The notes under the pieces were generated by a model, which had not been told where the DNA came from, did not search any database, and worked only from the letters and a program-made list of their open reading frames with translations. The translations under genes were made by a program, and so were the position numbers. DNA of 39,791 nt from Candidatus Sulfopaludibacter sp. SbA3 (GTDB lineage Bacteria; Acidobacteriota; Terriglobia; Bryobacterales; Bryobacteraceae): NCBI GenBank assembly GCA_945893365.1, contig CAMDED010000065.1:1-39791 (forward strand), written 5' to 3'. Below are positions 7,313-18,069 of the stretch, one piece after another (positions within the stretch are counted from its first letter, which is position 1; every line of letters starts with the position of its first letter).

Positions 7313-7335
<23 letters not shown>
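6121..7335 (-). CDS. Glycosyltransferase family 9-like protein
   Basis: A protein of about 400 residues whose C-terminal half resembles the ADP-heptose:LPS heptosyltransferase (GT9) fold. It contains [24 protein letters not shown] (shown here only in part), then a late nucleotide-sugar-binding segment [20 protein letters not shown]. The N-terminal half has a helical region and a Rossmann-like part ([19 protein letters not shown]). Its acceptor and donor are unknown. The start is uncertain: an in-frame ATG at 7395 lies deep inside mtnP, and the TTG codon at 7335-7333, which overlaps the mtnP end by 23 bases, is more plausible. It is probably co-transcribed with mtnP. A broken paralogue lies at 4100-4320. 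Confidence 0.75.
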
Positions 7336-8169
<834 letters not shown>

Positions 8170-8173
<4 letters not shown>

Positions 8174-9339
8174 TTCCAGTTCTCCTCGTCTTCAATCAGT
8201 TCCAACAGCACGCCGCCAGTCGAGGCGGGATGCACGAACACGCACATGTGGCCGCCCGCTCCCGGCTTCGGCTCTCCCAGAACGCGCGCGCCGGCCGCTC
8301 TCAAACGCTCAAGCACTCGGGCGAGCCCCGCGACGCGAATCGCGATATGGTGCAACCCAGGTCCGCGCTTCTCGATGAACTTCGCGATCGTCGATTCCGG
8401 CGCCGACGGCTCAAGCAATTCAATCCTGGGCGCGACGTCTCCGGACGCGCCGGCTGCCGCGCCAACAGGGAACATGGCGACGTGAACCTTCTCCCGGTCC
8501 ACAGTTTCGCGAAGGGTCATCCGGAGCCCAAGCTGAAGCTCGTAGAAATCGGCGGCTGCGTCGATCGAATCGACCGCGACGCCAAGATGGTCGATGGCGA
8601 ACGATTCTTTCACGCCTCGCGGCTTCTCAGAAAGCGGCAGTCCGCGAATTGCGGCCAGCAACTCCGCGATTCCCTTTCCTTCGGTGGCCACAGTCTCGAC
8701 CACCGGCGCCGCCCAACCCGCGCTGTGCAGCTCCCACTTTACGCGGTCCGCTCCCGGCTGGTCCGCCTTGTTGATCGCGAACAGATCCGCCACTTCGAGA
8801 ATACCGGCCTTGATCGCCTGGATGTCGTCGCCCATTCCAGGCGCAAGCACCACGACGGTGACATCGGCCACGCGGGCGACATCGATCTCAGACTGTCCGA
8901 CGCCGACGGTCTCAAGGAGGATCGTGTCCTTGCCGGAGACATCGAGGAGGCGAACGAGGTCCGCCGTTGTCCGCGCGAGGCCGCCTGACGCGCCGCGCGT
9001 CGCCATCGACCGAATGAAGATTCCCGGATCGGAGTGGTGCGATTGCATTCGGATGCGGTCGCCAAGAATCGCGCCGCCCGAAATCGCGCTCGATGGATCG
9101 ACCGCAAGGATGCCGGCGGTCTTCCCCTCGATGCGCAGGGTTCTTGCAATCCGATCGACGAGCGTACTCTTTCCGGCGCCGGGAGGCCCGGTGATGCCGA
9201 TCACGAGCGCGCGTTTGGGATGGGTGGAGAACTCCCGCAGCAGGGCAATGCCCGCCGCATCGCGATTCTCGATCGCCGTCGCGGCTCGCGCAAGGGCGCG
9301 GGCGTCTCCGCTCGAGATTCTTGCCGCCCAGTCGCGCAT
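8170..9339 (-). CDS. meaB: MeaB GTPase fused to methylmalonyl-CoA epimerase
   Basis: A 389-residue two-domain protein. Residues 1-235 are a MeaB/ArgK-type G3E GTPase, the chaperone that protects and reloads B12 in methylmalonyl-CoA mutase: Walker [10 protein letters not shown] (51-59), AVDPSS (79-84), the switch segment ETVGVGQSE (143-151) and base-recognition NKAD (190-193). Residues 246-389 are a VOC methylmalonyl-CoA epimerase: IDHLGVAV with His251, ELLEP (307-311), GLHHIAIRV with His331, and GVLLELIE with Glu380, fitting the metal ligands of that family. The dimerisation tail of normal MeaB (about 330 residues) is missing, and the epimerase follows directly. The ATG at 9339 overlaps the stop of the upstream acyl-CoA dehydrogenase (TAATG); an upstream in-frame start at 9408 lies inside that gene and is unlikely. 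Confidence 0.93.
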
Positions 9340-10481
9340 TAGTCCTTGAGGAGCTGGCGCGCAATCACCAGCCGCTGGATCTCGCTGGTTCCCTCGCCGA
9401 TCGTGCACAGCTTGACGTCGCGGTAGAACTTCTCAACCGGATAGTCCTTGATCAAACCGTATCCGCCGTGAATCTGCACGGCCTCGTTACAGATACTGAC
9501 GGCCGCTTCGGAGGCGAACAGCTTCGCCATTGCGGATTCGCGCGTCACCCGCTCGCCGCGGTCGAGCATCCACGCCGCGCGATAGGTGAGCAGGCGGGAG
9601 GCGTCGATCGAAGTCGCCATATCCACCAGCTTGTGTTGTATGGCCTGAAATTCCGAAATCGGACGCCCGAACTGCTTTCGCAGCTTCGAATACTTAAGCG
9701 CCGCATCGTAGGCGCCTTGCGCCATTCCTATCGCGAGAGCCGCGATCGAGATCCGTCCGCCGTCGAGCGTCTTGAGGCTGTCGATAAACCCGTGCCCCGG
9801 CTCGCCGAGCAACTGCGCCGCGTCCAGACGGCAGTCCTGAAAAATCACTTCACCGGTATCACTTGCCCGCAGGCCGAGCTTGTTCTCTTTCTTTCCCGTG
9901 CGAAAGCCGGGCGTTCCGTTCTCAATGATGAAGGCTGAAATACCATGCTGCGCCGCGGAGCGTTCCGTGACGGCCATCGCAACGCAGACGTCGGCGTAGT
10001 GCGCATTGGTCGTAAATGTCTTGGCGCCGTTGAGGACCCAGCAGGCGCCCTCGCGCACCGCCGTGGTGCGGGTTCCGGCGGCGTCGGAACCGGCCTCCGG
10101 CTCCGTCAGCGACCAGCAGCCGATCCACTCGGCCGAAGCCAGTTTCGGCACGTATCGCTCACGCTGTTCCTTCGTGCCGCATTTGAAAATGTGATTCGTA
10201 CAGAGGGAGTTGTGGGCGGCGACGATGATGCCCACCGAGCCGTCAACCCGCGAGAGCTCTTCGATGATGATCGAGTACTCGATATACCCTAGGCCGCCGC
10301 CTCCAAGATCTTCGGGAAAGATGGAGCCCATGTACCCGAGCCTGCCAAGTTTCTTGATCGCGTCGAGCGGGAAAATCTGAGCCTCATCCCACTCCATCAC
10401 GTGCGGCGCGATTTCCGCCCGCGCAAACTCGCGGACCGCTTTCCGAAGTTGAATCTGCTCTGGGGTATAGTCGAAATCCAC
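9339..10481 (-). CDS. Acyl-CoA dehydrogenase (short-chain type)
   Basis: A 380-residue FAD-dependent acyl-CoA dehydrogenase of normal length. It has the N-terminal helical domain, the flavin-binding segment [13 protein letters not shown], the arginine segment [17 protein letters not shown] and the C-terminal [17 protein letters not shown]. The catalytic base is Glu363, at the position used by butyryl-CoA and medium-chain enzymes; isovaleryl-CoA dehydrogenase has it elsewhere. The start is a GTG at 10481 without a strong Shine-Dalgarno site. The stop overlaps the MeaB-epimerase start. That context suggests a role in branched-chain or odd-chain acyl-CoA breakdown that feeds methylmalonyl-CoA; this is inference. 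Confidence 0.93.
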
Positions 10482-10516
10482 GAGAGAAAGATCCTAGCCC
10501 GGCGCTGCCGGGGTCG

Positions 10517-11716
10517 CTAGACGATCTCTTCCTTTGCCGCGTCCCAGCGCATCGTACGCTGCTGCCGGTAGCTCTCGACAGCCATGCGGCAGGCGATCGA
10601 CACGCGGAAACCAACGTCGAACGGACAATTGGTCTCCTTGCCGCCCCGGATGCAGTCGAGGAAATTCTGCATGTGCGCGTTGGGTGCGGTCTTCGCCGCG
10701 CCCACCATCTCCGTTCCATCCGGACGATTTACTTTTTGCGGGCGATAGCGGATTTGCTGACCCTTCGAAATAGTTCCATCCGTGCCGAGTACGTCTTCCG
10801 TGCTCCCAAGCTCGCTGTTGCCGAAGCCGGAATCCCACGTGAACAGAAGCTCTTCCGGATGTTCCATCGAGACGTTCATCGTGTCGGGAACTTCGCGGCC
10901 GTCCTTCCAGAGGTAGACGCCGCCAACCATGTTCACGGCCTTCGGGACCTGCAGGTTCATCGCCTTGTACCAGAACGAAAGCTGATGGCACATGTTCTCG
11001 TACACATTGCCGCCGGAATAGTCGAAAAAGAAGCGCCAGTTCGCGTAACGGTTCGCGTCGAATTCGTGCGGCGGCGCTTCGCCCAGAAAGCTCTTCCAGA
11101 TAATGTTCTCGGGCGTCATGTCCGGGTAGATGGGACGCGACCACTGCGGCTTCCCGTGCGGCGTGTTGCGGTACATGTGGGCGTGGATTGCCGTCACCTT
11201 GCCTAGAAAACCGGTTCGCAGGAAGTTCTCCGCGTCGGTAATTTGCCCCGAAGAACAGCTCTGGTGTCCAATCTGAACGGTGCGTTTCCCGGCGCGCTTG
11301 TAGGCCGCGCGCATGCGTTTCGCATGGTCCACGGTGAACGCCATTGTCTTTTCCTGATACACGTGCTTTCCGGCATCGAGAGCGGCTGTGAAATGCTCGC
11401 AATGCAGATGCTGCGGAGTGGCGATCAGCACGGCATCGACAGTCTTGTCGTCAAGCAGGTACTTGTAATCGAGGTAGGTCTTGGCGTTCGGCGCAACTTT
11501 CTTCGCGTCTTCCAGGCGCTTCGTATAGATGTCCGCGAAGCCCACGAACTCCGTGTTCGGACAGGCGATGGCCTCGCGCACAATCTGCATGCCGCGGTCG
11601 CCCGCGCCGATGATTCCGAGGCGGATTCTGTCATTCGCGCCTAAAACATTTGAAGCGGCGAGCGTTCCGGCCAGGCCGGTCGCTACTTTTCCGATGAAAT
11701 TACGACGGGAGTCCAT
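10517..11716 (-). CDS. Secreted Gfo/Idh/MocA-family oxidoreductase
   Basis: A 399-residue NAD(P)-dependent oxidoreductase-like protein. Residues 1-27 are a twin-arginine type signal (SRRNFIGK, then a hydrophobic stretch ending VLGA). The Rossmann motif GIIGAG is at 34-39. The family's catalytic EKP is EKT at 122-124 (YQEKTMAF), and the C-terminal domain contains the usual WRFFFDYSGGNVYEN. Tat export fits a protein that folds with its nucleotide in the cytoplasm. Members of this acidobacterial group are mostly uncharacterised; some relatives act as glycoside hydrolases with a bound NAD. It ends 35 bp upstream of the acyl-CoA dehydrogenase, perhaps in the same transcript, although no metabolic link is evident. 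Confidence 0.9.
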   Translation of the reverse strand: MDSRRNFIGKVATGLAGTLAASNVLGANDRIRLGIIGAGDRGMQIVREAIACPNTEFVGFADIYTKRLEDAKKVAPNAKTYLDYKYLLDDKTVDAVLIATPQHLHCEHFTAALDAGKHVYQEKTMAFTVDHAKRMRAAYKRAGKRTVQIGHQSCSSGQITDAENFLRTGFLGKVTAIHAHMYRNTPHGKPQWSRPIYPDMTPENIIWKSFLGEAPPHEFDANRYANWRFFFDYSGGNVYENMCHQLSFWYKAMNLQVPKAVNMVGGVYLWKDGREVPDTMNVSMEHPEELLFTWDSGFGNSELGSTEDVLGTDGTISKGQQIRYRPQKVNRPDGTEMVGAAKTAPNAHMQNFLDCIRGGKETNCPFDVGFRVSIACRMAVESYRQQRTMRWDAAKEEIV

Positions 11717-17396: not shown

Positions 17397-17804
17397 CTAG
17401 GCGCCGTGCGCCGTCCGTTCCAACAATTCGACCAGCAGCCTCTCCTTGGTCAACATCCAGGCGACGCGCCGTCCGCCAAAGGCCACCGCTGGTTTGGGAC
17501 GGCTGACGATCGCCGCCCCCAAAGCCTTCATCCCCGCCATTTCCAATTCCAGACCGTCTATTTCATAACAAACGTGGTGCAGTCCACCGCCCTTGTCTTC
17601 GAGGAAGCGCCGCAGCGGCGACCGGTCGCCATCGGGCTCGACAAGTTCGATTTGCGGCTGGCCCGGCCGCGAGGTCAGGAACGTCACCTTAGCCCCTTGT
17701 AGAGGATCCTCGTAGATGACGCCGTCCCACGCTAGACGGAGAGACCGCGCGAAGGCCCTCGCGGCCGCGGCGATGCCGCCAACCACGAATCCCACGTGAT
17801 GCAT
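17397..17804 (-). CDS. VOC-family protein, epimerase-like
   Basis: A 135-residue vicinal-oxygen-chelate protein resembling methylmalonyl-CoA epimerase. It has MHHVGFVVGG with a metal-ligand His near the N-terminus, QIELVEP, GGLHHVCYEI with a second His, and LLVELLE with the C-terminal Glu, so the full ligand set appears present. The ATG at 17804 is preceded by GGAAG and starts the domain exactly; an in-frame GTG at 17822 and longer forms that run into the ACP gene are less likely. It begins 22 bp after the ACP gene and may epimerise or otherwise act on an acyl group on that carrier. Confidence 0.82.
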   Translation of the reverse strand: MHHVGFVVGGIAAAARAFARSLRLAWDGVIYEDPLQGAKVTFLTSRPGQPQIELVEPDGDRSPLRRFLEDKGGGLHHVCYEIDGLELEMAGMKALGAAIVSRPKPAVAFGGRRVAWMLTKERLLVELLERTAHGA

Positions 17805-17826
17805 GGTACTTCCGGAATCCACGGCG

Positions 17827-18069
17827 TTACCGCGCACCAACCTGCTCAACCACGTAGTCGTGGACGCGCTCGAACGTATCCAGGTCCGCCAAGCGGTCGA
17901 AATCCATCTCAAAGCCGAACTCGTCCTCGATCACGTTGACCAGCAGAATCGAGGCAGTCGAATCCCAGGCTGCGACGGAGGCTTGCGAGGCGCTTGCGAT
18001 TTGGGCTTCGGGCAAAGTCGGAAAAACGGTCTGAAAACAGGCCGTCAGGCGGGTAGCGATGGCGCTCAT
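17827..18069 (-). CDS. Acyl carrier protein
   Basis: An 80-residue ACP. Ser37 in WDSTASI (35-41) is the predicted phosphopantetheine site; Leu is more usual in the DSL motif, here DST. The following helix (ILLVNVIEDEFGFEMDFDRL) and the acidic character fit the four-helix carrier fold. Its ATG overlaps the FkbH stop codon (ATGA), so the two are translationally coupled. It is a dedicated carrier, not the fatty-acid-synthesis ACP, judging from its divergence and neighbours. Confidence 0.87.
   Translation of the reverse strand: MSAIATRLTACFQTVFPTLPEAQIASASQASVAAWDSTASILLVNVIEDEFGFEMDFDRLADLDTFERVHDYVVEQVGAR

Follow-up and report, generated by a model that had tools for sequence, protein, structure and literature searches.

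A MeaB-type GTPase without its dimerisation arms is fused to a methylmalonyl-CoA epimerase in Bryobacteraceae and other genomes

The chaperone GTPases MeaB and MMAA carry C-terminal dimerisation arms. In the window analysed here, the whole stretch of 39,791 nucleotides from contig CAMDED010000065.1 of Candidatus Sulfopaludibacter sp. SbA3 (GCA_945893365.1), one gene encodes a GTPase of this type without arms and with a methylmalonyl-CoA epimerase (MCE) attached instead. The locus raises the question of what this chain is and how its GTPase would pair once the arms are gone. Defects of human MMAA, the chaperone, or of the human mutase lead to methylmalonic aciduria, and structures published in 2023 revealed how the chaperone pairs up to open its mutase (PMC9974510, PMC10481361, PMC10356863).

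The reading frame translates to a single chain of 389 residues with zero internal stops and matches both profiles, in agreement with the initial annotation of a MeaB GTPase joined to a VOC epimerase; its features are collected in Table 1. Pfam PF03308 (MeaB) aligns with residues 16-232 over profile positions 1-232 of 273 at 260 bits, and TIGR00750 scores 274 bits, above its cut-off of 240.75. TIGR03081 (metmalonyl_epim) aligns with residues 249-383 at 113 bits in hmmscan, under its cut-off of 114.95, and at 115.8 bits, over it, in the six-frame search; a fused homologue scores up to 144.6 bits. The MCE part of the window protein contains a 9-residue insertion that is absent from the other eight fusions of alignment A1.

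Table 1. Features of the fusion gene and its two neighbours in the window
Feature	Position	Strand	Basis or remark
Acyl-CoA dehydrogenase, upstream member of the conserved cluster	9339..10481	(-)	profile matches; same neighbour in L007, L039
MeaB-MCE fusion gene	8170..9339	(-)	389 aa + stop; ATG at 9339
MeaB-type GTPase core, residues 1-232, without C-terminal dimerisation arms	8644..9339	(-)	PF03308 and MeaB alignment
P-loop GPPGAGKST (Walker A), residues 51-59	9163..9189	(-)	translation, motif tally
Switch III equivalent, about residues 166-177	8809..8844	(-)	D171, Q174, K177 = MeaB D182, Q185, K188 (MeaB numbering of PMC9974510)
Base-specificity motif NKAD, residues 190-193	8761..8772	(-)	translation
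Linker, about residues 233-248	8596..8643	(-)	domain bounds; residues 239-245 with pLDDT <50
VOC methylmalonyl-CoA epimerase domain, residues 249-389	8173..8595	(-)	ligand positions H251, E307, H331, E380
mtnP-like S-methyl-5'-thioadenosine phosphorylase	7313..8173	(-)	TTG start; TIGR01694 324.7 bits, cut-off 274.85

The two nucleotide-binding motifs and the metal ligands His251, His331 and Glu380 lie where they had first been placed. Alignment to solved MCEs adds Glu307 as the fourth ligand position, and the ligands His, Gln/Glu, His and Glu are all present in the fused MCE. The VOC fold and the metal ligands are common to the fusion and to known MCEs (1jc4/1jc5, 6wf6, 6bu2, 6qh4, 3oa4). The fusion differs from these in being joined to a GTPase and in having Val287 at the position of S. 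coelicolor MCE Glu43, which we take to be the acid/base Glu. Since the Bacillus structure 3oa4 likewise has no Glu at this position, the feature may not define the whole MCE family.

The C-terminal arms are missing, as first noted. The PF03308 match stops at position 232 of 273, a local alignment reaches no further than residue 253-254 of the 329-aa M. extorquens MeaB, and the arms HMM finds no match in the fusion. B12 and mutase domains are absent from the chain; the IcmF model aligns with its G-domain and nothing else. The AlphaFold2 model, built with 11 sequences, has a mean pLDDT of 78.4 and a pTM of 0.63 (the other four models reach 63.9-73.6), with low confidence at residues 82-93, 114-119, 239-245 in the linker and 296-299. 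Foldseek matches this model to MeaB chains and to MCE chains as two separate units, with TMt values of 0.72-0.88 for the MCE structures.

These features argue that the protein is likely bifunctional and belongs to the methylmalonyl-CoA branch, its N-terminal half being a predicted MeaB-type chaperone of an AdoCbl-dependent mutase and its C-terminal half a predicted epimerase. It shares with MeaB and MMAA the GTPase core, the P-loop, switch III, NKxD and the equivalents of seven contacts of the active dimer. Like IcmF, it holds a MeaB-type G-domain within a larger chain; the IcmF chain includes mutase and B12 domains, whereas the partner in the fusion is an epimerase and the mutase is separate. 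Open-access literature searches, covering titles and abstract openings, found nothing describing a MeaB-MCE fusion. It is a new domain fusion built of known parts.

The assembly (G000; 7.88 Mb, 299 contigs, 96.65% complete) contains one PF03308 match and one TIGR03081 match above cut-off, and both are the fusion. No second meaB or mce above cut-off, and hence no full-length pair, was found in this 96.65% complete genome. PF01642 has no match on the window's own contig, as had been noted for the mutase, and two matches on others, C107 and C16. The C107 large subunit has Phe/Gln and is ICM-like, with a B12-binding subunit directly after it, while the C16 large subunit has Tyr/Arg at the human MCM positions in an alignment to solved mutases and is MCM-like; we assume here that Tyr/Arg versus Phe/Gln is the signature of MCM versus ICM. 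A carboxyltransferase akin to the alpha subunit of methylmalonyl-CoA decarboxylase scores 818 bits, under its cut-off of 998.8. Together with the mutase genes, it makes a route from propionyl-CoA to succinyl-CoA plausible in this genome.

Two further observations concern the same genome. The stretch L037, with the C16 large subunit at 9178-10665, gives no B12-binding match, and the ORF upstream of it is presumably IscU-like. A VOC-fold protein at 17397-17912 (-) of the window scores 54 bits with TIGR03081, well under cut-off, and matched no other NCBIfam model at E 0.001.

The same architecture recurs in other genomes. A match spanning both halves is present in at least 61 of 200 genomes of the window's family and in 38 of 250 genomes of its class: 18 in the window's family f1, 17 in genus g5 and one in genus g297 of family f2, and two in genus g259 of family f86. 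Those of the f2 group that have a name are Edaphobacter lichenicola (L087) and Acidobacteriaceae KBS 89 (L073); other f2 genomes have a separate armed MeaB (L016-L023). Among 132 family loci, classified at one per genome, 67 are tail-less and fused, 52 armed and separate, four tail-less and separate, four tail-less and in frame with mtnP, two armed and fused, and two unclear. A MeaB was called armed if it had an arms-HMM score >15 or was separate with a tail of 50-80 residues; L235 is armed by length alone, and L240, miscalled by the same rule, was moved by hand from armed separate (53 to 52) to tail-less with a vestigial MCE. The 132 loci leave aside the MeaB-matching genomes G363, G425, G466, G349, G342, G384, G321, G301 and G311, second copies at G413:C47, G387:C45 and G445:C291, and G390. 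Fusions that keep their arms also occur in f18, another family of the phylum (L046, L047). The Clostridia locus L083 is scored tail-less, but its gap of 82 residues may contain divergent arms.

Three versions occur within the single genus g2: separate genes with an armed MeaB (G413), separate genes with a tail-less MeaB (G187) and the tail-less fusion (G289). In genus g171, four tail-less fusions (L185, L186, L190, L192) evolve fast and form a long branch, of length 2 in the MeaB-core tree; they retain the P-loop, switch III and NKxD.

Two trees, both quick and with SH-aLRT support only, describe how often these states changed; their counts cannot separate gain from loss. In the tree of four concatenated proteins (1031 columns and 82 of 114 eligible rows, the 32 dropped being tail-less fusions of a large clade), the tail-less fused state against all others requires 10 changes, of which six are forced by supported branches, and shuffled states require a mean of 25.8. 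Taken separately on this tree, the arm state changes nine times and fusion 10 times. In the tree of 189 MeaB cores, made without L030 (the same gene as L046), L180, L184 and L187, 11 changes, three of them forced, account for the distribution of the tail-less fused and armed separate states. A single origin of the tail-less fusion is disfavoured by the best trees; MeaB cores alone, with their three forced changes, are compatible with it.

The fusion lies in a tight cluster of the order acyl-CoA dehydrogenase, meaB-mce, mtnP. Its ATG shares one base with the end of the acyl-CoA dehydrogenase ORF, and its own end overlaps the mtnP-like ORF by four bases. The gene order is identical in G289, of the same family; G187, from the genus of G289, also keeps this order, but there mce is a gene of its own, overlapped at its start by the end of a tail-less meaB. 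Four named Acidobacteriota contigs, L049, L050 and L051 from Bryobacterales or Bryobacteraceae and L054 from Terriglobia, have the same order on one strand, but here meaB and mce are two genes and MeaB is armed.

Several loci depart from this order. In G445, G452, G358 and G453 the frame of a tail-less MeaB continues into mtnP and the intervening mce is gone (L191, L193, L205 and L209), giving in L191 an ORF of 542 aa. A gp4 Acidobacteria MAG has a single 690-aa ORF of acyl-CoA dehydrogenase and armed MeaB (L078:2881-4953). In L048:3779-6314, acyl-CoA dehydrogenase, mce and mtnP are consecutive and no meaB was found between them.

Such a cluster suggests that the fusion may be a by-product, in which the arms are dispensable and in-frame deletions in a tight, deletion-prone region join neighbours without functional gain. 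This explanation is credible, if a little short of an even chance. It is favoured by the other joins in the cluster, of acyl-CoA dehydrogenase to MeaB in L078 and of tail-less MeaB to mtnP in L191, L193, L205 and L209, and by the tail-less MeaBs that stand next to a separate mce in L039, L210 and L243. L039 and L210 are sister to the armed separate L212 and L216 (SH-aLRT 98, quick four-gene tree), and this grouping makes arm loss without fusion the simplest reading there; L243 is a second such case. Against a by-product stand the abundance of the tail-less fused form, at 67 of 132 loci with 10 changes and six forced, and the rarity of tail-less unfused forms, four of 132 in addition to the four in frame with mtnP. 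Selection argues against it as well: dN/dS within the genus is 0.057-0.091 for MeaB and 0.082-0.090 for MCE, which indicates that both halves of the fusion are under purifying selection. Outside the genus the MCE value is 0.103-0.264 in three pairs, and the highest of these, 0.264 in L147/L188, weakens the case for a bifunctional protein somewhat.

The residues of the active dimer bear on how a GTPase without arms would work. PMC9974510 gives seven MeaB residues that make trans contacts in the active GTPase dimer: D92, R108, E154, Q160, D182, Q185 and K188. Their equivalents in the fusion are D81, R97, E143, Q149, D171, Q174 and K177, and all seven are present in 87 of 88 tail-less cores, the one miss being a gap, and in 104 of 104 armed cores, a tally that still counts L240 as armed. 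This retention suggests that the tail-less chaperone would still use the paired active state. IcmF G-domains, according to PMC10481361, are monomeric when inactive and form the same interface through GTP-driven oligomerisation. With the arms gone and the interface residues of the GTP state kept, the G-domains of the fusion would probably pair, like those of IcmF, in the presence of GTP and mutase and not otherwise. With pairing arms removed, active-dimer contacts kept and three natural versions in genus g2, the need for arms is directly testable with natural proteins.

The fusion itself probably arose when the stretch encoding the arms was deleted from a pair of neighbouring genes that overlapped. 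The epimerase might contribute to the pairing of the G-domains: known MCEs are dimers, and an epimerase dimer could keep two G-domains close together. In its strongest form this explanation, which we then consider doubtful, makes the MCE homodimer a constitutive dimeriser of the G-domains in place of the arms, tying the chaperone to the epimerase. Arm loss and fusion do co-occur, with 67 tail-less fused and 52 armed separate loci against two armed fused and four tail-less separate, kinship not removed. Independent pairs on supported branches agree in 3.9 of six cases and oppose in 0.0 on average, a link that is not significant (median p 0.125). Against a strict rule that the epimerase takes over from the arms, however, stand the unfused tail-less MeaBs of L039, L210 and L243 and the fused MeaBs that keep their arms in L214, L252, L046 and L047; the linkers of tail-less fusions with an MCE also range from 11 to 58 residues. 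The related proposal that mutase quality control is obligately coupled to substrate supply is weakened by the occurrence of each half without the other. Arm replacement by the epimerase together with a coupling of substrate supply to mutase quality control is a possible reading. A tentative version, which we hold to be rather improbable, is that the epimerase dimer replaced the arms as a scaffold for the G-domains, giving a loose, GTP-gated chaperone that is co-delivered to the mutase with the enzyme that supplies its substrate. If true, it would be a second natural solution, besides IcmF, for an armless trans switch III active site. A frameshift or assembly artefact joining two genes is refuted beyond reasonable doubt by the dN/dS values and by the recurrence of the fusion: two assemblies of the same genus carry it with 87-88% identity, and many further ones have it too, among them G217 and G621, each a single contig.

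The state of the fused epimerase gives further insight into the predicted bifunctional protein. The MCE is complete, with all four ligands, in 61 of the 67 tail-less fusions, truncated in four, by a stop, a frameshift or the end of a contig, and vestigial in two; L204 and L230 are counted as fusions despite a vestigial MCE, and the MCE of L150, L183, L187 and L189 is incomplete. Among 114 MCEs checked, any ligand is lacking only in six cut or vestigial copies. Eight tail-less MeaBs have an MCE that is missing or vestigial (L191, L193, L205, L209, L204, L230, L240, L256). Another MCE of at least 90.7 bits appears, among the matches listed, in seven of these eight genomes versus three of the other 65 fusion genomes (G424, G469, G348), with a Fisher p of 6e-7 uncorrected for kinship; the exception is G357, with no other MCE among the matches listed. 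This difference suggests that the epimerase half is prone to decay in genomes that have another MCE available. In G358 and G453 the second MCE adjoins a long mutase and a second MeaB. A sizeable second MeaB match is present in seven of the eight genomes, in two pieces in G452; the one in G397 covers just 50 residues at 25.9 bits.

The epimerase also persists by itself. G061, G112 and G249, with no mutase and no MeaB match, retain an unfused MCE over cut-off (L266, L267, L268). Each directly adjoins a gene that we take to be tsaB-like and that flanks the fusion in relatives. The three group with fused MCEs (16 rows, 98). An orphan MCE at the place of the fusion indicates that the two halves can separate, and its retention in three genomes without a mutase means that the epimerase may have another substrate.

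The chaperone, in turn, occurs together with the mutase. Among 34 f2 and f86 genomes, chosen for the fusion (20), for a partial match (three) or for a weak match or none (11), all 23 with MeaB have a mutase and all 11 without MeaB have none. The three with partial matches (G195, G036, G593) are also fused (L263-L265); that all 23 are fused reflects the selection, in which most were picked as fused. The fused MCE is the sole MCE over cut-off in each of the 23. In the window's family a mutase is found in 182 of 200 genomes, and among the 67 genomes with a tail-less fusion G460 alone, 79% complete, is without one. One genome combines both kinds of G-domain chain, with an IcmF-like frame of 1150 aa (L273, G511:C27) beside a MeaB-MCE fusion.
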